Below are positions 7,146-49,677 of a stretch of 64,000 nucleotides of DNA, piece by piece; the first letter of the stretch is position 1, and every line of letters begins with the position of its first letter. Below the pieces are notes generated by a model. That model was not told the DNA's origin and did no database searches. It saw only the letters and a list, made by a program, of their open reading frames with translations. The stretch is from Malus domestica (Eukaryota > Streptophyta > Magnoliopsida > Rosales > Rosaceae): contig NC_091671.1 of assembly GCF_042453785.1 (NCBI RefSeq), positions 7,076,001-7,140,000 of the forward strand, given 5' to 3'. The translations under genes and the position numbers were made by a program.

Positions 7146-7914
7146 TGCGCACTACGAAAAGATATTATGTGAGTTTTCGTTGAGAATTTTTTTGATGGAG
7201 GCATCCATGATTTGCAAGGCCCACCATGGCAAAGCTAGGTATCGGCCTGACATGTGAAGACACCATCGCGGAGAAGAATCTGGAAAGTTCAATCCTTGTA
7301 TTTTTCTTATATAATGGTGTCGTTTTAGTGAACTGAATGTTTCGATTCCAACATCTAAAATACTACAATTGGAATTTTTACATACTACAATTGGATTGTA
7401 TCTTAAAATTCTGAAGTTTTGGATTGAATTACCACTACCAAAAATGTGAGCATTGGTCACAATCATGCTGCTTTGTGTTGGATTTCGTTAGAGATCATAA
7501 TTAATCAATCACCCATATTGTGTCTCCCTCCAAAAGCTCAAACTGAAACCTAAACTCCCTCGTCGACCAAAAAAAAAAAAACAATCCTTGAACTCCCTAG
7601 CAAATCAGAGCCCAATTTGACAACCAAGATCTTCATCGTTCGAGCATCAATGTTCTCTTAAATTTGCTGCGAGCAACCTACCATGAAATCTCCTTCATGG
7701 ACATCTCATAAAATTAGAATGGTACAAAGAAGAGTAGTGTCACTCCTAAGCTAGGATTACACGTTTGAATCGCAAAATAGTTCCTCCTCCACTCTTTGAT
7801 TCTCTCTTTCACCGGCTAACAATATTTTACATTACCATCTTTTGCTCTATTTGACTGAAGGACAAATTTTGATTGTCTAAATATTATATTAAACTACAAA
7901 TAATATTGATATTA
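7146..7914. repeat. Segmental-duplication flank, left part next to the Helitron
   Basis: Matches block B 36600-37410, including ATGTTCTCTTAAATT and the run up to ATAATATTGATATTA. A shorter diverged copy of its beginning occurs at 21124-21290 (GAGCCACCATCGCAAAGAAG). No gene is supported. Confidence 0.75.
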
Positions 7915-8149
7915 CTTTAGTCTAAAGAAGGCTTTTCAATTGCATTGTACCAATGAATAGTGTTTTGAACCACATTTCAGTTTATTTACAAGACTGCCAC
8001 TGGGACGCTTTTAGCCAACTTTTGCTTTATTTACAAAAATGCCACTCAGGCTTAAGACTCGATTTTCAGCCGCTGCATCTCAGGTTTTTACTAGGGGAAA
8101 GAGAGGGGAGGGGGACAGAACGAGCAGAGAGAGAGAGCCTGCGGCTTGC

Positions 8150-8541
8150 AGAATTACGATGATAGAAGAAGAAGCTCAAAAGTTTGATACGCCAAGTCGA
8201 AGGAACCCTAAAAACCAGAGAAGAAGAAGAAGCTCAGAAATCGGGTGAGGATGTTGACAAATCAGCAAGCCCAGTTTTAGGCGACTCTGCAAAACCAACA
8301 ACCTAACCTCCGACGAACGATGTTAGAGGGGATTCGTCAGATTCGAGTCGAACCGAGGCCGTCGTCGACTAAGAGAACATTATCGATCCCGACTTTTGGA
8401 TCGACTCCCTTTACCTGCTCCCTGTCTGTTACTCCTGCTCCGTCTCTCTTCTTGCAAGTTCGCTCGGGTTCTTCTCCCCAGTTATTTCAAGCACAAAAAA
8501 TTCTCCAGTTTCATTCGTCAGCTCATACATACGTAAGCTCT
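8150..8541 (+). other. Exon-like captured fragment of unknown origin
   Basis: A moderately GC-rich stretch inside the Helitron, followed by a plausible donor (ATACGTAAGC near 8530), so it looks like 5' UTR or exon sequence of a host gene. The frame 8320-8565 begins at an ATG and is Ser/Thr/Pro-rich, but I do not recognise it. A related phrase, AGAAGAAGAAGCTCA, recurs near 14330, suggesting both came from one source or from an internal duplication. Confidence 0.3.
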
Positions 8542-8565
8542 TCGCCTCTTAATATTTTGATTTAG

Positions 8566-10059
8566 GTTAATTGTTAAATTCTTGAAAAAAATTGAAAGCA
8601 TTGTTCATTTTTGTCCCAAATTGGTTTGGTTCTGGTTTGGAAACAGAAATTAAAACATATACTCCTTCATCTACGATTCACTTATTCCATTCCAGATATT
8701 TCTCCATTTCTCTCTTAATTTCTTACTTTTTGATTCAAGCGTTTAATTTTTTATTAATTAAATTACAAATAAGTATTATTGACTTTCATTTGGTACCAAT
8801 CAATCAAGTGAGAGATGAGTTGTTTGAATGTTTGATTTTACTTGAATCAGAGTCTCCAAGGAGGAGAAAGAGAAGGATCCGAATGATTTAGGGTTTAGGT
8901 CTTAGCGTGTGAGCAGGCGTATTGATGACTGTAATCAAGGTATCACTTAAGCTCTAATTGTGACTAGTAAATTTTGAATGACTGCTGGTTACTGTTAAAA
9001 CCCCAAATGTATGCAATCCCACGTTCCAATTTGTTGTGTGAAGATGCGGACCACAATTGCTTCCTCTCAGCACAATTAGTTTCCACGATTACTCTTAAAC
9101 CCTAATTGTCTCTCCTCTATCTAAAATCCATTTTTCGATTTTTGAATACGGTAAATGGATATTGTTTCTATGTGCAGGTGTTACTCGGAGAAGTTTGAAA
9201 GGCCCTGGGACAATGAGGATTGCATTTCAGAGTAGCAGAAATACAAGGCCACCCTCTCTTTGTGTATCCAATCTTACCCTTCTCCTAAATTTTTATCAAA
9301 CTATAGGATTTATTTTGCTGATTTTATTTTTTGCGATTTGAGTTTTTATCTCCTGCTTATTTTTTATTTTTTTGCCGAGGTATTACTTTTCCTTTGACTA
9401 GAAATTTTAGTGTTTTTAAAGTATAATGTTATCAAATTCTAATTTTCTAATTTTCTGATTTTGGCCTTTTGCAGGGAGTGCTAAGATACTAAATTTTTGG
9501 GATTTTTTATCTTTGCATGATTTTTGGTCTTTGAAATGGGTATGTGCTGTTTTTAACGTTTTGGTTCTCAAATGTTTCGTTCTTGATTTCTGTTTTCTGC
9601 CTCCTTCTAGGTTGCTTCGTGATTTTCATTTTCCATTGTTGGCTTATGGAATTTATAAAAATGGTTGTAGTTTTGTGACCAAATCCCAATAAGAGTATGC
9701 CGAAACACAGATTAGCATGTAGTGAACATACGTTGAATTAGAACAAAATTTAATATATAAGTGAAGGCATGTGCAGTGAACAGACATTGAATTTAAAATT
9801 GATAGGGTAGTTAAGCTTCTGCCTTAGTTATTCTTTGTCACTCACTTTTGGAATTTAATTCATTCATTTCAAAGTCACTCATGTACTCTGTCTTACTTTA
9901 TTCACTCATGTTTAGTATGCACCATTGAATTTTTTTGTCATATATTATTCACTCATCTACTACACTAATGTTGAGATTTGGGTATCATTTGTTTTCTCAT
10001 ATGTCATGTTTTTAAGCCAAATCTAATATATAAATGGATCCAAAAACTCCTGATGTAGC
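8566..10059. other. Helitron interior, intron-like sequence
   Basis: T-rich, intron-like DNA. A short exon-like piece at about 9181-9250 follows a TGCAG acceptor and reads FERPWDNEDCISE before a stop; I do not recognise it. No other coding signal is seen. Confidence 0.35.
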
Positions 10060-11462
10060 ACATTTAATTTGTTCAAATATTGATTCTTTTCCCTCTATTC
10101 ACTTCAGTTGTCGTGTTCTTCTTCGTTCTTTTTTCAACGGCAAAGCTGGACGATCCATGGAGCACATGTTGTTGAGCCTTTTGCCACTACTGGTCTGGTC
10201 CAATTCGAAGGAGTTGTTGGAGTACAATCTTTAGGCCCTTTGGAGGAGCTGAAAAACCAGTCTCGACTCTGCTGACCTAGACATATTCCGAGATATGCTC
10301 CAGCTCCATAACGAATCGGACATCAGCCCGGTTCACTACTCTCACTCTTTCCTGCTTTCATTCTCAATTTTTTTTTGGAATTTTGCGCTGAATTTCATTT
10401 GGGTAATTTGTGAAGTTTTGTTTTTTTTTCTTCTTTTGTTAGGCAGCTTTTGGTGTGCCTGCGAATGTTGATTCGGCGATGCGTTTACAATAACGTCAAG
10501 AGGGAAAAGATTCAAAAGATGTTCCCAGTGTAGCTATTTTATAATTGATGAGGCTGTTGGTGCTTTTGATGCGGAAGTTTCAGCGAGAATGACGGCGAGA
10601 TGCACACAAGGATCAGGTTAGAGATCTGTGTTGTTTGACATTTCTGTGTAAACATTTTTGAGTATCAAATATATCTCAAATTTAGGGTGTCGGTTATGGG
10701 CTACTAAAGCGGAAAGTTCTTTTGGCTCATACATTAAAGCGGCATGTGCTTTTGGCTCATACATTTAATTTGTTCAAATATTGATTCTTTTCCCTCTATT
10801 CACTTCAGTTGTCGTGTTCTTCTTCGTTCTTTTTTCAACGGCAAAGCTGGACGATCCATGGAGCACATGTTGTTGAGCCTTTTGCCACTACTGGTCTGGT
10901 CCAATTCGAAGGAGTTGTTGGAGTACAATCTTTAGGCCCTTTGGAGGAGCTGAAAAACCAGTCTCGACTCTGCTGACCTAGACATATTCCGAGATATGCT
11001 CCAGCTCCATAACGAATCGGACATCAGCCCGGTTCACTACTCTCACTCTTTCCTGCTTTCATTCTCAATTTTTTTTTGGAATTTTGCGCTGAATTTCATT
11101 TGGGTAATTTGTGAAGTTTTGTTTTTTTTTTCTTCTTTTGTTAGGCAGCTTTTGGTGTGCCTGCGAATGTTGATTCGGCGATGCGTTTACAATAACGTCA
11201 AGAGGGAAAAGATTCAAAAGATGTTCCCAGTGTAGCTATTTTATAATTGATGAGGCTGTTGGTGCTTTTGATGCGGAAGTTTCAGCGAGAATGACGGCGA
11301 GATGCACACAAGGATCAGGTTAGAGATCTGTGTTGTTTGACATTTCTGTGTAAACATTTTTGAGTATCAAATATATCTCAAATTTAGGGTGTCGGTTATG
11401 GGCTACTAAAGCGGAAAGTTCTTTTGGCTCATACATTAAAGCGGCATGTGCTTTTGGCTCAT
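10060..11462 (+). repeat. Two-copy tandem duplication (701 and 702 bp) inside the Helitron
   Basis: 10060-10760 and 10761-11462 are almost identical; the only difference I found is one extra T in a T-run. Each copy contains exon-like sequence, for example a piece after a TTAGGCAG acceptor reading LLVCLRMLIRRCVYNNVK, which I cannot assign. Near-identity suggests a recent duplication, or a collapse/expansion artefact of assembly. The open frames 10034-10234, 10744-10935 and 10996-11235 are parts of this repeat, not separate genes. Confidence 0.85.
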
Positions 11463-11767
11463 TTCTTTACAAAAGTTGAATATTTGAATCTGCTTATTTA
11501 TGTTTTGAAATGAGTGTGTTTGTTATTCATGTTTTGGGAATGTTAAATCTTTTTAATTTTTTCGTTCCAGGACGAAAATATTTAACGAAATGAATTCTGA
11601 CTATAAAGTTAATTGAAGCTCTGAAAAATTTTGTGGTCGAAAAGGATGACAGATTACTATAGTTTTTTTTCCTTCCTATCCAAAAACTACCTTTGATTTT
11701 CTTGATTGTGCGTATATTTAATATTTGCTATTATAATCGTTCCCAGTATAATAGCAGAACCTACTAG

Positions 11768-12245
11768 ACGAGCAGGACCAAGTACCCGACCCTCTACAAC
11801 AAAATCAGCCTGCTCAGAAACCCTAGCTTGAATGCGGTTCCAGAGCTCGACGACTGGGTCTACAATGGCAACAAAGTCCGAGTCACCGAGCTTCAGCGCA
11901 TCATTCACGACCTCCGAAAGTGGAAACGCTTCTCCCAAGCCCTCCAGGTTTCCATCTTTCTTTCTTACCTTGCAATTTGTGTTATCCCCTGTTTGGTTGC
12001 TCAGAAAATGAAAGAAAATTGAAAGAAGAATCAAAGTAATTAAATTTTAGTTAAAGAAAGTGAGTGAATGAGGGAATTAGGATTTTTGTTAGTTTATGTG
12101 TTTGTTTGTATCATAAGTAATCGGAATTTCCTCTGCTTTCATAATAATGTGTTTTAGGTTGCAGATTTCAGAATGGATGAATCAGAAGGGGATATGCATA
12201 TTTTCGCCGGTTGAGCATGTCGTGCAACTGGATTTGATTGGGAAG
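11768..12245 (+). pseudogene. Captured PPR-protein gene fragment (two exons)
   Basis: Exon 1 (11768-11947) gives an open frame including NAVPELDDWVYNGNKV and VTELQRIIHDLRKWKR. After an intron (11948-12164, GT...TTGCAG), exon 2 (12165-12245) reads ISEWMNQKGI and VVQLDLIGKV. This is the N-terminal part of the plant P-class pentatricopeptide-repeat proteins of the At2g20710/At4g21705 type, which are organellar RNA-binding proteins. Only about 87 codons remain; the PPR array itself is absent and the frame stops soon after 12245. The next captured fragment, casein kinase 1, starts under 80 bases later, so two unrelated genes are joined here. Not expected to encode a functional protein. Confidence 0.8.
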
Positions 12246-12323
12246 GTAGAATTTTGCACGAATTGCTGTCAAATAAAGCCAGTTTGAGCCTATGGGTCGA
12301 ATCCTATTGGACATTGTTGCATC

Positions 12324-12537
12324 ATGGAGCATGTGATTGTTGGGAAGTTTAAGCTGGGGAGGAAGATTGGGAGTGGGTCTTTCAAAGAACTCTATTTAGG
12401 TATGGTAATCAGTGCTTGATATCCTTTTTTCCTTAGAAAATTATTCATTGTGTTAATTTAATGTGTTTTGTAATGAAATTGCTCTTCTGGTGTTAGGTGT
12501 AAATGTACATGGTGGGGAGGAGGTTGCTGTTAAGCTG
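12324..12537 (+). pseudogene. Captured casein kinase 1 gene fragment (exons 1-2)
   Basis: Exon 1 (12324-12399) starts at ATG and reads MEHVIVGKFKLGRKIGSGSF; exon 2 (12497-12537) reads VNVHGGEEVAVKL. The split codon and GT-AG intron (12400-12496) are preserved. This is the start of the kinase N-lobe of plant CK1 (CKL) proteins: the glycine-rich loop and the ATP-binding lysine in VAVK. Two departures from the family are visible: K instead of G after GSGSF in the loop, and a missing residue where the family has QTGEE. A donor-like GTATGT follows, but no further CK1 exon is found downstream, so about 90% of the kinase is missing. Inferred Helitron capture of genomic DNA, introns included. Confidence 0.82.
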
Positions 12538-13241
12538 GTATGTGATCGATCGTCAAATCTTATATTTAGTTCTGATGTTTGGTTTATGGCTAAATGTTTG
12601 CAAGCATTGTATAGTTTTGTGCCTGATTGTAAATGGGCGGCTTCATTAATGTACTAGGGTATGTTGAGTGTGAGCTTCTGGTAATTCATTATGATTTCAT
12701 GTGTGCTTCCATATATATTGAAATTGTCCAGTTTGCTCATGGATGTTTCTGTATGATTTTGCATGTCTCCCTTGATAAAAGCTTGAGCAAAATATGCTTA
12801 TGAAATCGATATGTGGTTTAGCTTTATAATTGTGCCTGCATCTGTACTGCTTATTTGCTACCCATCTAAACATATAACTTTATATGAGATAGCCCCCCAT
12901 TTGAAAATGAGTGTTTTTATGCGATGTTTATATTTGTAGGCACTGGAATTAGTGTCTTTTGTTTTTATTTTGATCTCAGTTACTCAAAACTGAATTTTTT
13001 GTTGGTGTGAATATATATGTCAACATTTAATATCAGCATTTGGAGTGAATCAAATTCATTTTAAATTTTCTTAAATTTATTGATTATCAGATGACATAGT
13101 TAACAACTTCTGTGATTTTAAAACACTTGGAGGTGAGATTTACATAATTAAATAGTCAATTGAAAAATTGAAATGAGATGTTAGTTTTACCTGACTGATT
13201 TCTTTGTTGGGTTTATTACTGCTCAATGTTAAAACCCAAAA
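12538..13241. other. Helitron interior, intron-like sequence
   Basis: T-rich sequence between the CK1 and GPN2 fragments, probably captured intron DNA of one or both genes. No coding signal is seen. Confidence 0.35.
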
Positions 13242-13497
13242 ATGGTTTTTTGGGCAAGTGGTGATTGGCCCGCCTGTGTCAGGAAAGACCACTTACTGCA
13301 ATGGCATGTCTGAGTATATCTAGCTCATCCGAAGGTAAAAAATTTCACTCTGAATTCTGGGTTTTCAAGTTTTTCCATGGCTTCAATTTTGGTTTTTGAA
13401 TACATCTGAAATATTTACAGTGGCAATTTGTTGTTTTGGTGTGCAGGAAAGTTTTTGTGGTAAATTTGGATCATGCAGCCGATGCATTGCCGTATCC
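13242..13497 (+). pseudogene. Captured GPN-loop GTPase (GPN2-type) gene fragment
   Basis: Exon 1 (13242-13334) reads, after a one-base frameshift, [20 protein letters not shown], which is the N-terminus and Walker A of GPN-loop GTPases of the GPN2 type (QQT1 in Arabidopsis), involved in RNA polymerase assembly. After an intron (13335-13446), exon 2 reads VFVVNLDHAADALPYP, the switch region of the same family. It is clearly broken: an extra T in the run after the ATG shifts the frame, Walker A has V for G (GPPVSGKT), TAG at 13321-13323 interrupts exon 1, and similarity ends near 13497 before the GPN loop. Third unrelated gene in the same orientation inside the Helitron. Confidence 0.8.
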
Positions 13498-14580
13498 TTT
13501 TCGGGGTTTTATTTTTTTCATGTTTATTGTTCGTAATTTGTAGTGTTGCACTGCATTCCAATGTCGAATATTGAGGGTAATAAAGTAGAGCTACTGGTTC
13601 ATCTTTCATTTGATCTTCTACTAATTTCGATTGAATTCCACAAATTTTTTTTATTTGCTTAGTTTAATTTGTTGTTGTTCAATTGTTATGAAGATCTGTG
13701 AATGTGTATGAATTATTGGTTCTGATTTTTGTTGAACAATGTGAAGTTGCTTGGTGTTTTAAGTTCTTGATCCAAAGAAAGTTGCGTTATTTCGTAATGA
13801 CATTGCCGTTTGTAGTGGTTGTTTGGATTACTGTGTCATTTTATTTATGCAACACTTATATGATACCTTTCTTATTGGCTGTATGTAAATCATCAAATAT
13901 CTTATGGATTAATATGCTTACCATTTCGTATACATATGTTTTTTATTCATGTTAAAACTTTTTGTATTATTTTTGTGTTTGTCATTGGCAGGTGAATTTG
14001 TAAACATTCATAGTTATCCATAGGACCTTGAGGGAGTATGCAATTAGTATTCATATAGATGGTTATTTGTGTTAACGATGAAAGCATATGGTTTAGGTTT
14101 GTCCTCAAAATTTATGCTTAGTTGTAATAATGCTTTTGCTTAGTTGTTCATGTAAAAATGGAACAATTTTTTTTTGTACATATGTCATTTTATATTCGTT
14201 TAATGTTTGAACTTATGCTTATGAACTTGGTTATTGGTAGGGCTCTTCTAGAGGCAGTGTTGGCGTGTAGATGATGTGGAAGTAGGCGATGAGGAGGAAA
14301 TGACAAAGGTGGAGGACCAAAAGGTCTTATAGAAGAAGAAGAAGCTCAGAAGTCTGATACACCAAACAACTCCATCTGAAAGAGGAAGAATCCAAGGGTA
14401 AACCCCTTCAAACTCTTCGATTATGGTGTTCTTTAGTCGATTGCAAGACTAGAACTTGAAAAACTAACACATGCATATAATTTTTTTATGAAGGAACTGC
14501 AGTCCAGTGGTTGTATAAAACAAAAGGACAACGCATGCTCTCTCTCTCTCATAGTAGCTCTGTGTTCCTCTCCCCCCAAA
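13498..14580. other. Helitron interior, no recognised gene
   Basis: T-rich intron-like sequence. The frame 13698-13955 is hydrophobic by composition only. Near 14320-14400 is an exon-like AG-rich piece sharing wording with 8160-8230 and with 15135-15180 (CAAACTCCATCTGAAAG), pointing to internal duplications. Confidence 0.3.
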
Positions 14581-14584
14581 CCTA

Positions 14585-14652
14585 ATGGCTTCATCCCAAT
14601 TCGGAGCCTGCTCGAATCGGGACTTCTTGGAGATTCGGATCTCCAGGTGAGA
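14585..14652 (+). other. Possible captured first exon, unknown gene
   Basis: Starts ATGGCTTCATCCCAATTC and stays open to a donor-like AGGTGAGA at about 14646-14653, following a CT-rich leader typical of plant 5' UTRs. The deduced start MASSQFGACSNRDF is not one I recognise. Most of the Helitron's other exon pieces show the same pattern of a short leader, an exon and then an orphan intron. Confidence 0.3.
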
Positions 14653-14792
14653 TAATTTTCCCCAAATTGTATTCAATCTATGTTGCTTCATTTCATTTTC
14701 CATTTTAATTTGGAATTGTTGATATTTTAGGCGGGTATTGCATGTATAACCACAACAATTTTTGTGTTGGATTGGGGTCAAATTGTCCAGCT

Positions 14793-15366
14793 TTATTAGC
14801 TATTTGGTCGCCTTTGTATTTGTAATCTGAATAATATGAATTAGGGTTTTTCTGTTAGTGTCCAATTGGTCAAGAAAGGATGCTTCTTTTTTGTTATCAT
14901 GCATATTTAAGCTGTAAACATCTGAAAAACTGCTTAATTGAAGTGATATTTCCAGTTTTTTAGCTCAGTTTCAGGTTTTGACCTTTGAATTTGTTTACAT
15001 GTATCCCAGCTGAAGCTATGTACATCGTAGTTTAAGGGGATTTTGCTCAAAATCTGGAGAGCTCTCTCGCTTTGCTCTCTATGTAAACCCGAGAGAAATT
15101 CCATGGAAACATCACGCCTGCAAACGAAGTTGCAGGCCTACACACAAGCAAACTCCATCTGAAAGCCAAAGAATCCAAAGGTAAATCTCTTCAGCTTTCT
15201 TAGCTATTTGGTCCTGTGTATTTGTAATCCGAATAATATGAATTAGGGTTTTTCTGTTAGTGTCCAATTAGTGAAGAAATGATGCTTCTTTTTGTTATCA
15301 TGCATATTTAAGCTGTAAACATCTGAAAAAGCTGCTTAATTGAAGTGAGATTTCCAGTTTTTGAGC
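14793..15366 (+). repeat. Internal direct repeat of the Helitron (two about 165-bp copies)
   Basis: About 14793-14965 and 15205-15366 share GAATAATATGAATTAGGG and CATGCATATTTAAGCTGTAA with scattered differences. The spacer (14966-15204) is unique and includes an exon-like piece with CCTGCAAACGAAGTTGCAGG, itself a partial palindrome. Confidence 0.8.
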
Positions 15367-17274
15367 TCAATTTCATTTCTTATAGACAATTTTTTTTCAA
15401 GATTTCTGGGTTTCTTTTTGCTGCTTCTTTGTTAAATTACTCATCTGGAAGTTAAATTTTGTTCAAATACCAAGTATTGTTCTTCAATTAAAGATTTATG
15501 GGTTTTTTTATTGCTTCTTTTCTGTTAAATTACTCATCTAGAAGTTAATTTTGTTCAAAAACTTACTGTTCTTCAATTAATCTTACAAGAAAGCATATGA
15601 GAATGTGGCACATTAGGTGTTCGATGAAATGTGTCTGAGAATCTGTCAGTATGATATATTATAATTCTGAATCTCCTCTTCAGCTCTGGCCACAGGTGCG
15701 CGAAGGCGACATGATCCTGGTCGACAGTTCGGAGCTCTGGCGATTCTGACTAAGAAAGAGGTCAATAACAACAAGGTAATGGAATTCAATGTTTTGTGTT
15801 TGTTATAGAGGCATATTTGCAACAGTATATCAGATAATAATTCTAGATAGTATGTCCAGATGGCATAGATTGTGTTTCATGATGCATATGGCTGAAGCGG
15901 TTTTGGCTACTTTTTTTATTGCTCATTAAATTTTTTGCTGCCTTTGGCTGGTACAAATATATATAAGAAGTACTATCCTTTTATCAACTTTTACCAAGTC
16001 AAATTTAGGATCCATTTGTACTCATGCGCCATTGGGGTAAAGTGCATGTGCTTTTTTTTTCTGTTGTATATTTTCATCTAGGGGATAACGTTTTGTTGTT
16101 TGTTGGAAGGAATATTAAAACACATCCACACCCTATTTTGTCATTGTTCTAAAGTATCTCATGCTGGTTTTAGAATTCTCCCGACTTTCTAACTCAAATA
16201 TGTGCCAAGAGAACCCAACTAAAGTGGTTCGCCGCTCCATGTATGAAGTATTAGTGAATTATTTGTAATTTTACATAACCAAAAGAAAATTTTTGCGTTG
16301 TATGCATACATATTGAAATTTATGTTATAAATTTTTTGAAAAGAAACAGATGTAAATTAGAATCATACTAATATAGGTATGCTGTATACATAACTTTGAT
16401 AATACCATAAGTTCAGAATTAATCTTTAGTGTCATTAAAAAATTTATGTAAATTTATATACATAAATTTGATAGCACCATAAACTTGGGGTATTGTTATA
16501 TTTAGTACAGGCAATATGATGCCGTTCAGGTGTTTTTAACTAATATCTGCAGTTTTTCAATTCATCTGGGGTATTTGTGATTTTGAACGACACTAAAAAA
16601 TTTTATGGGTTATAGGAACTGCAGGTTAAAAAAATGGGTCAAATTCAGAGCTGCATTCGTCTTCCCTCAAAATAAGAAGAAAATGCTTCCTCAACTACAT
16701 ATTTTGCAACCTCAGGTATATTTGTGTTCTAAAGGCTTTTACTTCCTCCGGTTTCTTCAGAGCTATTATTTTACCCATATATGATTTGTAAAGTGGAAGA
16801 TTGGATTTCATATGTCTGAGTATTTAGGGTTTTGCACAATGCAAACTTGAGCTTTTGATCCAAATGGCTAGAACAGTGTACTCGACCAATTTCATATCCT
16901 CTTGGGCTAATGAGAGTATATTACTTGCCACTGGGGAATTCACTTCATATAAGCCATAGAGAGAGAGAGAGAGAGAGAGAGTCACATTTTTGTTTTTTTT
17001 TTTTTGGATTTGGTAACTGAAATTTTATATGTGTGAACTACATGTTTCTTCTGTTTCTTAAGGAAACAGAAATTTTTTGGAAACCATCTCTTTCTAATCA
17101 AAGACATTGTGCAATGTGTTTATATGCCAACTCACTTGAATGTATATAAAAGCAAAACAGCTTCACTTATTGACCTCAATTCACTCATGTATCCCTCTGT
17201 TTGTTCACGATTGTGTTGAATTTATTCAATTTAAATATATTTTATTCATTTGATTATACCTGAAACAACAGGTT
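15367..17274. other. Helitron interior, no recognised gene
   Basis: AT-rich. An exon-like piece at about 15684-15776 has an acceptor CAG before and GTAATG after it; in one frame it contains LAILTKKEVNNNK, unassigned. A short (GA)n microsatellite lies at 16963-16981. The frames here are short and not convincing. Confidence 0.35.
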
Positions 17275-17305
17275 CCCGCAACAACGTGCGGGCATATTTT
17301 CTCGT
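17275..17305 (+). other. Helitron 3' terminal hairpin and end
   Basis: A 6-bp perfect GC stem CCCGCA/TGCGGG with a 6-base loop, followed by CATATTTT and the end CTCGT, then host T. This matches the known 3' end of Helitrons (hairpin about 10-13 bp before CTRRT) except for C in place of the first purine. Confidence 0.7.
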
Positions 17306-34600: not shown

Positions 34601-37600
34601 TTGATCAAGCACAAAGGTTAGCATGTTTCCATCTCCAACTTCTTCTAGGTTTAGTAAAAACTTATGAAAATTATATATATAGTACTCAAAAAAGTATTCT
34701 ACCATGTTTTATAATATATACATACATGTATAGCACTTGAAAAATTGAACAGTTTGGATCTAAAACCACAATCTGCTACCTGATTCATTTTTTCGAGGTA
34801 CCTAATAGCAGTTAAGGTGTGAGGAAGAAGCTTTTTAGATTACCAACTGCCTCAAGAGAAACCTTTATCAGAAACACATATACAATAAACATAACCGTAG
34901 TGCTAAGTGGCCTAAAAATTAATTTATCCTTAAACCGCTATTTTTGGAAACACATATACAATAAGCATAACCGTTTGATTTCTAATATTCTCCAATGCAT
35001 GCAGGAAAAGAGTTTAAAGAACGTTGTGGCTCCAGCAATTCGTTTACCATATCATATGCACAAACCAATAAAAGGACATTTGTTGCACCAGAATTTCATT
35101 CCAAAAATACTATTTATGTTGCTTATTTTATGTACCATAAATTTCGATTGCGATTATTACTGTTTGTTTCTAAATTCGCATCATTAGTATTTGCTTATTT
35201 GTGCTCGAGGTTGATTATACACGTGTAAGCTGAATCACATGTTTGTAGAATGGACAAGCTGAATAAAATCTGTTTGCCCCCTAAATGTAATGGAAATCAT
35301 ATGTATCTAGGCATGCTTAATATTTGATAAAGAAAAACATTTCTCAAATAAATGTCCACTCACACCTCCGGCAAGCTCGCCCTTGAGGAGCCTTGTCTAC
35401 CAAATAGGTAAACATCTACTGGACAGCAGGCGATTCAAAACCATAGCAAACTGCTGAATACAACTAGAGTAAACAAGGAATCAGGCTATGCAATTGCCAT
35501 CATCATAACATGATTTTGGCCCCCATCTTCTAATTTCCTACCACATTTTCACATTCTTTCCATGAATTTTATGATTCCTATGCAACAGAGTTCATTCATC
35601 GCCTATTCACAACAATACAAGGTTCTACAGAGTTCAATCCCACACCATGTTATAGACATGCTTCAACTATCAACCGGGAACGTAATCGTTAGGGGTTTCA
35701 ACAATTTCACAGATACAACAATTACTATAAGTCTCATCTCCAACATTCATACAGAAAATCGAATAAAATTCGAAATCAAGAATCAAACCCAAAACTGAAA
35801 GTTGAAAATTTGGAAAAAGAACTTACATTGGAGAACAGCCCACGAGAAGAGTATCATTTCTACCTCTTGGGTCGAGGTCCAATTCCCGCGATATTGGCCG
35901 GAAACCCCTGGGTCACCGTTTCTTAGATTTGAAGTTGAGGAAAATCGCCTACGAAATTATAGAAACTAACTTGGGGGATTGGATAAGGGACGGCAAGAGC
36001 ATTCTGGATGTGTAGTTTGAGAGCTTTTGGTGACCAGTGGACGACAGAGCTGTTGCGTCGGCACTCGGCAGTCTTCGGCTTGCTGTTAAATGGGGCTCCA
36101 GGAGTCGCAGCGCAAAAGAGAAGGAGGAGAGAGGATACGGGAGGAGGAGAGAAAATGGGTTTCTCCCACCTTTTACATTAATTCTTTTCCACATTTTTTA
36201 ATGTAATAAACGATAATATATATCATCAAAAGCGTGTTTGGTACGTGAGATGAGAATGAACGTGTTTTAATGATAATAATGACTAGAAGTAATATAGTTA
36301 AAATTCGTTTTTGGTGATAATCGAATATCAGATTTCTTATCTACAAGTTACAAATAAAAATGAATATCATTATTTTTTTTTCACTTTTAATACACACGTA
36401 AATAAAAAGAAACAAAATGAAAATGAAAAGAAATAAAATAATTTGAAATAGAAATGAAAAATAAAGGTAAATTGACAACATAAGGTAATCAGCCATGGTA
36501 ATACAAAATTATTATACTATCCTTAAACATTGTAGTGCCATGGAATCTTCATTTTAGCTCTGAATTTCCTTCTGCATACGCTCACGCGTTCATATTGATG
36601 AGCACTACGAGAAAATATTAAGATGATAGGTCATACTCATACGTTCGTTTTTGTTGAGAATTTTTTTGAAGGATTTTGCAATATGGCAGCCATGATTTGC
36701 AAAGCCCACCATCGTAGAACTCGATATCGGCCTGACTTGTGGAGCCACCATCGCAAAGAAGAACCTGGAAAGCTCAATCCTTGTCTTTTTCTTATATAAG
36801 TGTCATTTTGGTGAACCAAATGTTCCGATTCCAACATCCAAAATACCACAATGTGATTTTTTTTCATACTACAATTGGATTGCATCTTAAAATTATGAAG
36901 TCTTGGAGCATTGGTCATGCCATCATGCTGATTTGTGTTGGATTTCGTTAGAGATCGTAATTAATCAATCACCCTTTTTGTGTCTCCCTTCAAAAGCTCA
37001 AATTGAAATCTGAACTCCCTAGCAAATAAGAGCCCAATTTGACAACCAAAATCTTCATCGTTCGAGCATCAATGTTCTCTTAAATTCACTACGAGCAAAC
37101 CGCCATGAAATCTCCTTCATGGACATCTCATAAAATTAGAACGATACAAAGAAGATTAGTGTGACTCCTAAGCTAGGATTACACGTATGAATCGTAAAAT
37201 AGTTCCTCCTCCGCTCTTTGATTCTCTCTTTCACTGGCTAACAATATTTTGCTCTACCTTTTCACCCTAAGTAAGAAATGAGCATTTTGTTAGCATCTTT
37301 TTGAAAATTTCAAATTTGATCCTAATATATCTCTTTTGCACTATTTGACTGAACAACAAATTTTGATTGTCTAAATATTTATATCAAACTACAAATAATA
37401 TTGATATTATATATTTATAATGTGACTGAAATTGTAGTACCCAACATATCTATCTTGAAATAAATTTTGTTGTCTATGAAGTGGCCAACTCGACCCTCTC
37501 CTATACTCTTTGAGTTTGTATAAATATATCATTGTTTAACAATTGACATTCAGTACTGTGATTTAGTGATATTCATTATCATGTTCGAATCTTAGGAGTA

Positions 37601-45907: not shown

Positions 45908-46390
45908 TCAACCAGAAATTTCAATGGCTCTGACGTCAACGTTCTTCAACTCCGCCTTCGGAACAGTGACACTCAGAACTCCATTCTCCATGGCAGCCTT
46001 AATCTGATCAACCTTTGCGTTCTCCGGAAGCTGAAACCTCCTCAAGAACTTGCCGCTGTTCCTCTCCACTCTGTGCCACTTGTCGTTTATATCCTCCTTC
46101 TCCACGTTCCTCTCTCCGCTGATCTTAAGCACCCTGTCGTCTTCCACCTCCACCTTCACCTCCTCTTTTTTCAGCCCCGGAACGTCCGCCTTGAACACAT
46201 GGGCTTCGGGGGTCTCCTTCCAGTCGACCCTAGTGTTCACAAAAGCCGAATTCTCCCGAGAAAATTCAGGAAATGCGGAGAGTGATGAGGAGGAAGGGAA
46301 CGGGAAATCCTTGAAAGGGTCCCACAGATTGAGGGAGAATGGGTCGAAGACGCTGCTGCTTCCTCGTCGGGAGTTGGGAATTAGCGACAT
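45908..46390 (-). CDS. Class I cytosolic small heat-shock protein (about 18 kDa)
   Basis: A single uninterrupted 160-codon frame, the usual length for plant class I sHSPs, which are intron-less. The N-terminal arm [20 protein letters not shown] and [10 protein letters not shown] is diagnostic of class I. The alpha-crystallin domain runs from about residue 55 ([20 protein letters not shown]) through LKISGER and [18 protein letters not shown] to GVLSVTVPK. The C-terminal IEIS motif needed for oligomer contacts is present. The protein is an ATP-independent holdase for heat-unfolded proteins in the cytosol, forming dodecamers by family knowledge. Upstream heat-shock elements and a TATA box support heat induction. 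A broken relative lies at 49200-49677 in the opposite orientation. The start is chosen because MSLIP is the family start. Confidence 0.96.
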
Positions 46391-46484
46391 TCTGAAAAAC
46401 CGATGGGGTTGGTTTGGATGCAGAGAAATTTGAGAATTATTACAGAATTATTGCTTTTGCTGGACTGATTGGAAAAGTAGCGGA

Positions 46485-46605: not shown

Positions 46606-49199
46606 GACGCTTAAGAATAATCCGACGTTTGTGTGAGTTACTCACACAACACGGTTGACTTCATGATGATGAATGGTGGACCCAAAAGCCTAAGTGTGGG
46701 GGTTGTATGGGCCATTCGATTTAATCGGACGGTTAAAACTGAAGATACTGTGCAAGTTATAAGCGGGGCGTTTGAATCTTTGATATGTATTATTTGGACT
46801 TATTGATAAATAATAATATTTACATTAAATTAACAATATCAACTAAATATCAATAACATTTAACATCTCATGAAGTAGCTTATCTAAAGGTAAAGGGAGT
46901 TATAGCCCAAACAAGCAAATTACCAGTTAAGTAATATGATGGTCACTTAGTGCTACCTTTAATGATATTTTTCTTTATTTGAGAGTGAGAGGTCTTAGAT
47001 TCGATTCTCGTCAAAAGCGAATTCGAATCATATTATTGTTTAGGGTAAATTGCCAATTTAGTCCCTGAATTATTACCTTAGTGAAAATTAGATTCCTAAA
47101 CTATTTTTTTCAGAAAAATTAGTCCCTGAAATATAAAAATCTGCCAATTACATCCCTAATGTTATATTCGAAGCTACTATATTCAAATTTTCGTCAATTT
47201 AAGTTATATTACTTGCATGCGATACACATTGGAGGGTAGATTGGTAGTTTTTCATAAAGAAATAGTGTATGGAGTTAACTTTGGATGAGAAATTAATAGT
47301 GTACAAAATAATACATAAAATATTGTAAAACACACATAAAAGGATCTAAGCCTAAAAAGAAAAATCATCCACAGAGCCCAGTCAGTAAGGTTCTATACGC
47401 CATAAGAATGAAATAAAGCATTTTATTGTGCACCATAAGATTGGAAGAATCAATCTTATACCTAGCCAATTACCAATGGCTGATCAAAGTTCTAGCTCAT
47501 AAATATTAAGTACAAATGTGAAAAACAAACTGAAATCTATAGGCCAAATTGATAATAAATAAATAAATAAAAAAAGAACATCTGCACGCCCGCACCGACA
47601 GTAAAGCTAGTTTAGTCTTTAGCGGAATTCTTTTCTCTCTTCTATCCCCCTTTTTTTTTTTTGGTCGAAGCCCAATTCTTTTTCATTCACGAAGTTTCTA
47701 GCAACTTCTGTTTTGCCTTCATTGAGCTGTTGGGTTTCATGCTCTTTCTAGTTTTACGGTACCTGAAATTTTCCAGAAACGTCTTTGACTCCTCATAAAT
47801 ACGTCACTAACCCCACGCCCTTCACCAACCAGTGAAGCCAAGCAAGAACTCTCCCTACTGACTCCAATTTGATTCCCAAGGCAGCCAAACAAAACCACAT
47901 CAAGTTTTTTGTTTTTTAGGTTTTTTTAATAAATTATAAAAAATTATCTCAATTATGAATCCAACTACAATCTTATATATCATGTTCAAACATTACAATG
48001 TTATATGAATTCCTTTAAATATTCTATTAATTTTAATTGTTAAATGATGAGATGCCAGGAATGGAGCTCACTCTTTTGATAATTGGAATAAAAAATTAAT
48101 CAATTAATAATAAATTAATAATTTTTTATTTACAATTAAAATCAATTAAAAAAAAAACTCTCTCAGCCGCATCCCTCCGTTACCCCCCCCCCCCCCCACA
48201 TTTTCCGAGCAACCAAACAAACCAAAGCATATAATTTTTTCCAGAAAAAAATTCAAAACCCAAGTCGAAAAATCACAAGAGAGTGCAGACCTGATTTTTT
48301 ATCCCAAAAACATGCATTGAATGTGGATCCGGCAATTACAAGCAGGACGCGATTCCCAAACCTCACAAATCAAAATTTACAAACCCTTAAAATCCCAATA
48401 GATTTACGAGTTCCCGGAGTGGGATTCAAATCCCACGAAACCTTCATAGCCATTGGACCAAAACACTAGACTATTTCTCTACTAGAGAAAATTAAGATTT
48501 AATTTTTAATTTAAACCCATGATGTTATGGGTACAATGATTTTTGGGCATCGGTGGAGACTACGCGCAGACGAAGGAGATAAGGGAATAGAGAAGACTCG
48601 CAGACTACCTCACCGAAAAGATCTCATCTCCCCTCCCCAGAACAACACCTTCCACTACTCCAAAATTCCTAGGTACTCGATTCCACTAGCAGAGACAACC
48701 ACATCAGCAATGGCGATGGCGATTATGCAGCTTCAAATTCTCATGATGCACTCGAGAGCTCCCTTGCCGATCTTTAGAACATTGACGATGGATAGACGAG
48801 GATTGGAAAAGTCTCGATCATCGTCAGGTCCAGGAATCGCGGGCGGGAAGCTCATACGGTAGCCGGATCTCGAGGTGGTTTCGATGACAGAAGACTCGCT
48901 GCAGACAACCATCAAGAAGCAACAAGAGAGACAGAAGGAGAGATGGGGTTTTTAATAACTTTAATTTTTTCAGATTAAAAATTCTTGACTTATTTAATTT
49001 TTAAATTATGAGTGGGTCCTATTATTGCCAAGTCATCATTTAGCAGTCAAACTGATAGAAAATTTAATGAAGGTGTGACATTGCAACGAATTTAGAAGTT
49101 GATGTATGATATTGTAATGTTTAATACATGAAGTATGAGATTGTGGTTCGACCCATATTTAAAGTAGTTTTGTATAATTTATCATTTTTTTTCTTCAAA
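46606..49199. other. Intergenic DNA between the two sHSP loci
   Basis: No gene. 47040-47160 resembles one end of a 'TTAGTCCCTGAA'-type MULE or MITE, without a visible partner. A C15 run lies at about 48183-48198. A repeat-like segment at 48960-49140 ends close to the sHSP pseudogene start. The frame 48527-48862 has no recognisable domain. Confidence 0.45.
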
Positions 49200-49677
49200 A
49201 TGTTGCTTATCCCCACCTCTCAACAAGGCAACAGCATCTTCGACCAATTCTCCCTCAACTTGTGTGACCCTTTCAAGGATTTCCCATTCCCTTCCTCCTC
49301 ATCACTCTCTGCATTCCCTGATTTTTCTCGGGAAAATCGGCTTTTATGGACACTACAGTCAACTGGAAGGAGACCCCCGAAACCCACGTGTTCAAAACGG
49401 ACATTTTGGGGCTGAAGAATGATGAGGTGAAGGTGGAGGTGGAAGACAACAAGGTGCTTCAGATCAGCGAAGAGAAGAATGTGGAGAAGGAGGACAAACA
49501 CAACAAGTGGCATAGAGTGGTAAGGAGCAGAGGTAAGTTCTTGAAAGATTTCAGCTTCCGGAGAATGCAAAGGTCGATCAGATTAAGGCTGCCATGGAGA
49601 ATGGAGTTCTGAGTGTGATCGTACCAAAGACAGAGGTGAAGAAGCCTGACGTCAAAGCCGTTGAAATCAATGGTTAA
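49200..49677 (+). pseudogene. Class I small heat-shock protein pseudogene
   Basis: Starts MLLIPTSQQGNSIFDQFSL and [19 protein letters not shown], clearly related to the intact gene at 45908-46390. A one-base loss near 49338 shifts frame; DTTVNWKETPETHVF to GKFLKDF continues in the second frame. Another one-base loss near 49548 shifts again, and the C-terminus ending [12 protein letters not shown] then TAA (49675-49677) is in a third frame. Two frameshifts disable the alpha-crystallin domain. The upstream 100 bases lack clear GAA..TTC elements, and the ATG follows a T-rich stretch unlike the active gene's leader. This is an inverted relative of the sHSP gene about 3 kb away. Confidence 0.9.

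Follow-up and report, generated by a model that had tools for sequence, protein, structure and literature searches.

A gene-carrying Helitron-type element in an apple CNL cluster and the extended target motif of its family

An insertion in CNL block A and its boundaries

We analysed a stretch of 64,000 nucleotides of the apple (Malus domestica) genome, hereafter the window (C11:7076001-7140000), and searched the assembly to which it belongs (651,096,769 bases in 19 contigs). Two paralogous CNL blocks, A and B, lie in the window. Block A carries an insertion of 9393 bp on the + strand (7912-17304), placed between host bases A7911 and T17305 with no target duplication, whereas block B is contiguous at the corresponding site. 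The features that define the insertion are the following, in window coordinates.

7912..17304, +: putative non-autonomous Helitron-type element of 9393 bp, with ends defined from nine empty sites and from further copies
7911..7911, +: host base A on the left side of the A^T target; of 38 5' flanks read, 35 were usable and 33 of these have A
17305..17305, +: host base T on the right side of the A^T target, present in all 39 3' flanks
37406..37407, +: unoccupied A^T target in paralogous block B, within contiguous sequence
7912..8072, +: 5' terminal region, beginning TTACTTTAGTCTAAAG, common to family members with other cargo
16906..17304, +: 3' terminal region, common to family members with other cargo
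17275..17292, +: 3' hairpin CCCGCA-6 nt-TGCGGG (6-bp stem, 6-nt loop), 8 nt before CTCG
17301..17304, +: 3' end CTCG (CTCG in 20 of 39 copies, CTAG in 17, CTTG in 2)

Local alignment of the window with itself shows that the homology of block A to contiguous block B sequence runs to 7914 and resumes at 17305, with a short overlap at the junction that makes the exact cut ambiguous from this pair alone. Elsewhere in the CNL cluster, five paralogues lack the insertion (C11 7113150, which is window 37150, 7166335, 7214649, 7252572 and 7017732), read GATATTATATAT and are 88-100% identical to the query; given the cut A7911^T17305, the joined window flanks align with them with one 1-base gap. Joined flanks of eight other copies were tested in the same manner; four of them led to an unoccupied site that could be read, each cut at A^T without duplication. 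Two of these four alignments are gapless (175/178 and 176/180 identical bases), and the other two (164/181 and 156/182) have small gaps, which lie either outside the part displayed or over 20 bases away from the junction. For the remaining four copies, the 40 matches scored, out of 514 candidates, included no unoccupied site.

The terminal sequences of dispersed copies place the boundaries at the same bases. A 5' query (7911-8080; 40 scored of 237 candidates) yielded 38 loci that were read, from which L011, L029 and L038 were dropped as their alignments start more than 3 bases inside; the two loci lacking A at position -1 have G (L032) and C (L035, the end of which is not intact). After the host A, the element starts TTACTTTAG. 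A 3' query (17200-17305; 40 scored of 152 candidates) yielded the 39 3' flanks, which exclude C11:8176774 (matching query bases 1-86 only) and are dissimilar past the T except for a cluster of six. The preliminary description of this DNA had proposed an insert of 9391 bases ending at 7915 and 17305, which is off by 3 and 1 bases. We rejected these ends because the TTA at 7912-7914 is common to copies with unrelated flanks, T17305 belongs to the host and the nine empty sites fit A7911^T17305 or its equivalent. Its underlying observation was sound: the paralogous block is break-free at 37406/37407, and all five empty paralogues of the cluster agree in delimiting the insert. Likewise, the CTCGT terminus it reported comprises the CTCG end and a final T that is host DNA, and both the right-end hairpin and the lack of inverted ends that it noted are borne out.

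All 39 copies end in CTNG, followed by T. The hairpin folds moderately better than shuffled sequences, 8 of 200 shuffles folding equally well, and a general scan of the window for a hairpin followed by CTNRT returned other chance matches as well, so that the hairpin alone proves little. In common with canonical Helitron1 elements, the insertion occupies A^T without target duplication at nine unoccupied sites, has a 3' hairpin and shows no inverted repeats at its two ends. It begins with TT where Helitron1 has TC and ends with CTCG where Helitron1 has CTRR, the latter form being present as CTAG in 17 of the 39 relatives. The A^T target differs from the TT or TTTT^T of Helentron/Helitron2 elements. 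Pack-MULEs are characterized by long terminal inverted repeats and a 9-11 bp target duplication, neither of which is found at the ends or the nine empty sites.

The surrounding cluster (C11:7017732-7289920) contains seven or more paralogues of the intergenic CNL stretch over ~270 kb, one of which is 99% like block B; in another, L113, the similarity ends at the target site itself. A U6 snRNA-like sequence at 37110-37213 (block A counterpart ~7690-7790) scores 44.7 bits against an Rfam gathering threshold of 44 and is probably a pseudogene carried along with the duplicated block. By eye, an open frame at 45908-46447 on the - strand resembles a class I small heat-shock protein, and 49190-49667 is an inverted stretch related to it.

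Cargo, sibling copies and a candidate partner

The insertion contains fragments of three genes and an internal tandem repeat.

11753..12248, +: PPR-gene fragment, 92% identical to C5:43299469-43299954, a PPR gene
12243..12697, +: casein kinase 1 (CK1) gene fragment, 93% identical to C5:31428348-31428802, a CK1 gene
13230..13575, +: GPN-type GTPase fragment (ATP_bind_1), 88-89% identical to C8:6308785
10060..10760 and 10761..11462, +: 701-bp unit in tandem, with no substitutions between the copies; single in the sister element L039

The donor matches are at the DNA level, spanning 496 (PPR), 455 (CK1) and 346 (GPN) window bases, and the donor loci extend beyond the captured part, with domain matches at E=1e-26 (PPR) and E=2e-16 (ATP_bind_1) and, for CK1, a match to PDB 3sv0 at E=5e-11. 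Each fragment also has a second, weaker locus (PPR and CK1 on C10, GPN on C15), perhaps the whole-genome-duplication partner of the donor. At the PPR/CK1 junction, AAGG is common to both donors. A Pfam scan of the three forward frames of the insert returned only sub-cut-off matches (COMMD9_HN, ATP_bind_1, HSF_DNA-bind, DUF6669 and TgpA_N) and no RepHel at E<1. The 701-bp tandem is either very recent or an assembly artefact.

The stretch 11740-13520 recurs whole on C2, C11, C14 and C15 (90-95% identity) and in part on C5, C6, C10, C13 and at a second place on C15, and the PPR-CK1 junction is spanned in eight of the nine other places that carry this sequence. Many places likewise carry cargo matching 8080-10760 and 14200-16900. 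Since eight other places share the PPR-CK1 junction, the cargo was not collected at the window site; the sequence comparisons indicate that the window copy received it from a chimeric lineage that had been amplified, rather than capturing it itself. The sense-strand PPR, CK1 and GPN fragments listed in the preliminary description, and its suggestion of matching them to donors, are thus supported by donors for all three, 88-93% identical; its gene-capturing, Helitron-like element retains the captured fragments but not the capture by this copy, which appears to descend from an older chimera. In the stretches examined, L101 (C15:21853439) and L103 (C13:26510451) hold only 11869 to ~12560, and either the PPR-CK1 chimera itself was copied again or these loci represent an earlier stage. 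At C7:31.15-31.28 Mb lies a cluster of several tandem-like copies of element cargo, 88-95% identical.

Genome-wide, there are 223 exact matches to the 5' end ATTACTTTAGTCTAAAG, and the 3' end pattern is found 119 times (at most 1 mismatch), with no occurrence of either reversed control. Pairing used the first 100 places of each end list, 64 of the listed 3' ends lying on C1-C7. Among the 100 5' ends listed, 34 can be paired with a 3' end lying no more than 45 kb away on the same strand (28 of the 34 at a distance of 4.9-14 kb), as compared with one opposite-strand control pair among the ends listed; two of the 5' ends are paired with the same 3' end. The search for further copies by terminal sequence that had been suggested thus uncovered dozens with the same two ends and unrelated flanks on many contigs, which identifies the insertion, as judged from its sequence, as one of many copies of an apparently non-autonomous Helitron-type element. 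Three copies (L040, L041 and L042) match it only over ~160 5'-terminal bases and at most ~400 3'-terminal bases, and look like a sibling branch of the family in which the same ends enclose different cargo: all three carry glycosyl hydrolase 35 pieces, and two a sucrose-phosphatase C-terminal piece that scores below the curated cut-off.

The sister copy L039 on C2 carries the same cargo at ~95% identity, with ~1.1 kb extra near 15375 relative to the window element, and the two diverge by a K2P of 0.036-0.042. Flank A diverges more from the five empty paralogues (K2P 0.077-0.106 over 398 sites, a small sample). Because flank divergence over these 398 sites exceeds the element-to-sister divergence, the insertion most likely happened after block A had split from the other CNL blocks, and the proposal that it postdates block separation fits both this comparison and the empty paralogues.

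The genome holds at least 142 matches to PF14214 (150 scored of 177 candidates). A candidate for an autonomous partner is C9:17884451-17894543, in which a RepHel match at C9:17884451 is followed ~10 kb downstream, on the same strand, by a CTAG-type 3' end homologous to that of the window over ~290 bases, with stretches similar to window 16308-16368 and 16538-16900 in between. Among the 5' ends listed, family ends lie 11 and 17 kb upstream of the RepHel matches at C7:10898119 and C2:34456353, respectively, and two lie within 8 kb of a weak Rep match at C5:38104179; at all these loci, C9 included, the family ends may belong to separate non-autonomous insertions nearby. No RepHel gene was tied to both family ends among the loci examined, and, apart from the C9 candidate itself, no autonomous relative was found among 40 scored 3' ends resembling L118. 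RepHel loci at C8:27.18M and C3:5.85M could not be linked to the family: in the parts of them that were read, neither common ends nor homologous internal sequence was found.

An extended target motif

Helitrons are usually described as requiring only A and T as their target. Of the 39 3' flanks of this family, 23 have a CTA starting at +7 and 10 have one starting at +8. Reducing the set to 33 independent insertions by dropping the similar-flank cluster of six leaves CTA at +7/+8 in 27 of them, against 54 of 3168 other positions of the same flanks, a background of 3.4% for two positions (binomial 1.7e-34). The motif accompanies both major end types (12 of 15 CTCG copies, 14 of 17 CTAG copies), and T at +5, A at +9, A/T at +10 and A at +11 are also enriched; the stricter pattern T-N3-T-W-CTA is present in 10/33 insertions. 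The window copy is among the six exceptions. A second test based on exact 3' ends found CTA at +7/+8 in 28/33 sites, 12 of which were already in the first sample (11 with CTA); 17 of the 21 new sites have it, one of the 21 (C9:17894519) having been inspected earlier. The target preference of the family, unexpectedly, extends beyond AT to CTA at +7/+8.

Two other readings of this signal were considered. The CTA could be part of the element end, or DNA added on insertion, as might be suspected from the window copy, which has no CTA and was the first copy for which empty sites were found. We rejected this reading as very unlikely, since the unoccupied sites L119, L120 and L121, corresponding to all three motif-bearing copies checked, already contain CTA at +7, and the spacer separating T from CTA is freely variable among flanks; in L122, the unoccupied site of an exception copy, CTA is absent in both the occupied and the empty state. 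Alternatively, the signal could stem solely from insertions beside the 5' ends of other Helitrons, with no general sequence preference: TCTATTCTAAA, which we take to mark putative 5' ends of related Helitrons, lies within 8 of the 39 flanks, in 6 of them exactly at +1. This explanation is improbable, as 24 of 30 insertions keep CTA at +7/+8 when, besides the cluster, L004 and two more flanks starting with TCTATTCTAAA are also dropped, and the other flanks share no similarity with one another.

The TCTATTCTAAA stretches themselves carry CTA at +7, which would make an A^T in front of one of these ends an ideal target and lead to head-to-tail pairs. We tentatively suggest, at somewhat less than even chance, that the family RepHel may read its target like a plant Helitron 5' end, that is, A^T followed by CTA(A/T)A about 7 bases on. 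The layout of this proposed target matches the TCTATTCTAAA stretches that several copies abut; against it, the 5' end of the family itself has CTAAAG at +11, not +7. We found no description of an extended Helitron target motif, or of this family, in the open-licence literature, subscription journals being outside the scope of the search.

Origin of the insertion and relation to other Helitrons

Our data make it very probable that the insert is a non-autonomous Helitron-type (rolling-circle) copy of a gene-scavenging chimeric lineage that landed in CNL block A. An ancestor would have gathered PPR, CK1, GPN and other DNA between the family ends, in an order that we can only infer, and the chimera would have been copied many times. 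For each copy, a RepHel protein supplied in trans would nick A^T before the 5' end, one strand would be peeled off up to the 3' hairpin, presumably by rolling circle, and the peeled strand would be joined into an A^T target without target duplication. One such copy would have reached CNL block A after block divergence, and the 701-bp unit would have been duplicated within it after insertion. A gene-capturing cut-and-paste element, such as a Pack-MULE or CACTA, is an extremely improbable source: such elements also carry gene fragments, but the absence of visible inverted ends, the 3' hairpin and A^T target, and above all nine unoccupied sites with an exact A^T and no target duplication contradict this origin. 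An ordinary segmental insertion, or a deletion in block B, has a next to negligible probability despite the many indels between blocks of the CNL cluster, given that five blocks have the empty state in common and that copies with these ends are scattered over many contigs in unrelated surroundings.

The Helitron-type copy proposed here can be compared with known systems through the available parts of the relevant papers. Maize HelA and HelB are likewise large, non-autonomous carriers of several gene fragments acquired by stepwise capture, with A^T insertion, a 3' hairpin and copies beside other Helitrons; their ends are TC...CTAG as opposed to TT...CTCG here, and the portions available give no target rule beyond A/T, unlike the CTA motif described above (PMC3288121, PMC2267711). 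The HelA 5' search pattern ATCT[N]TACTAC, equal to TCTNTACTAC, has T at +5 and CTA at +7, the same layout as the target in apple (PMC3288121), and head-to-tail Helitrons have been described in maize and bats (PMC2267711). Bat Helraiser/Helibat elements also use A^T without duplication, prefer AT-rich DNA most strongly on the 3' side and include CTTG in place of CTAG ends, as in this family; they differ in being autonomous and, in the text available, in showing AT-richness rather than a CTA at fixed distance (PMC4778049, PMC5876387). Wheat Xuan-Feng is also non-autonomous and inserts at AT, moved there by an autonomous partner; the accessible text mentions an AT dinucleotide preference, in contrast to the CTA motif (PMC13286980). 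Variant termini and targets within the superfamily have a parallel in Helitron2/Helentron elements and Fusarium FoHeli, although the targets reported in the part of the source available are T-rich, TT or TNAT-type, rather than A^T (PMC5148889).

A gene-capturing Helitron is in itself one more case of a well-known phenomenon, and the novelty resides above all in the extended target motif, along with the variant termini. Helitrons are already known to shuffle genes in maize; the apple case shows this at base resolution, inside a resistance-gene cluster, with donors, empty sites and sibling copies supplied together by one assembly. Annotation may benefit because the ends and the motif identify insertions that TC/CTRR rules miss. 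The motif provides a concrete clue to site choice by a eukaryotic HUH transposase and could account for Helitron clustering; if true, 5'-end mimicry would explain head-to-tail Helitrons and make insertion sites predictable.
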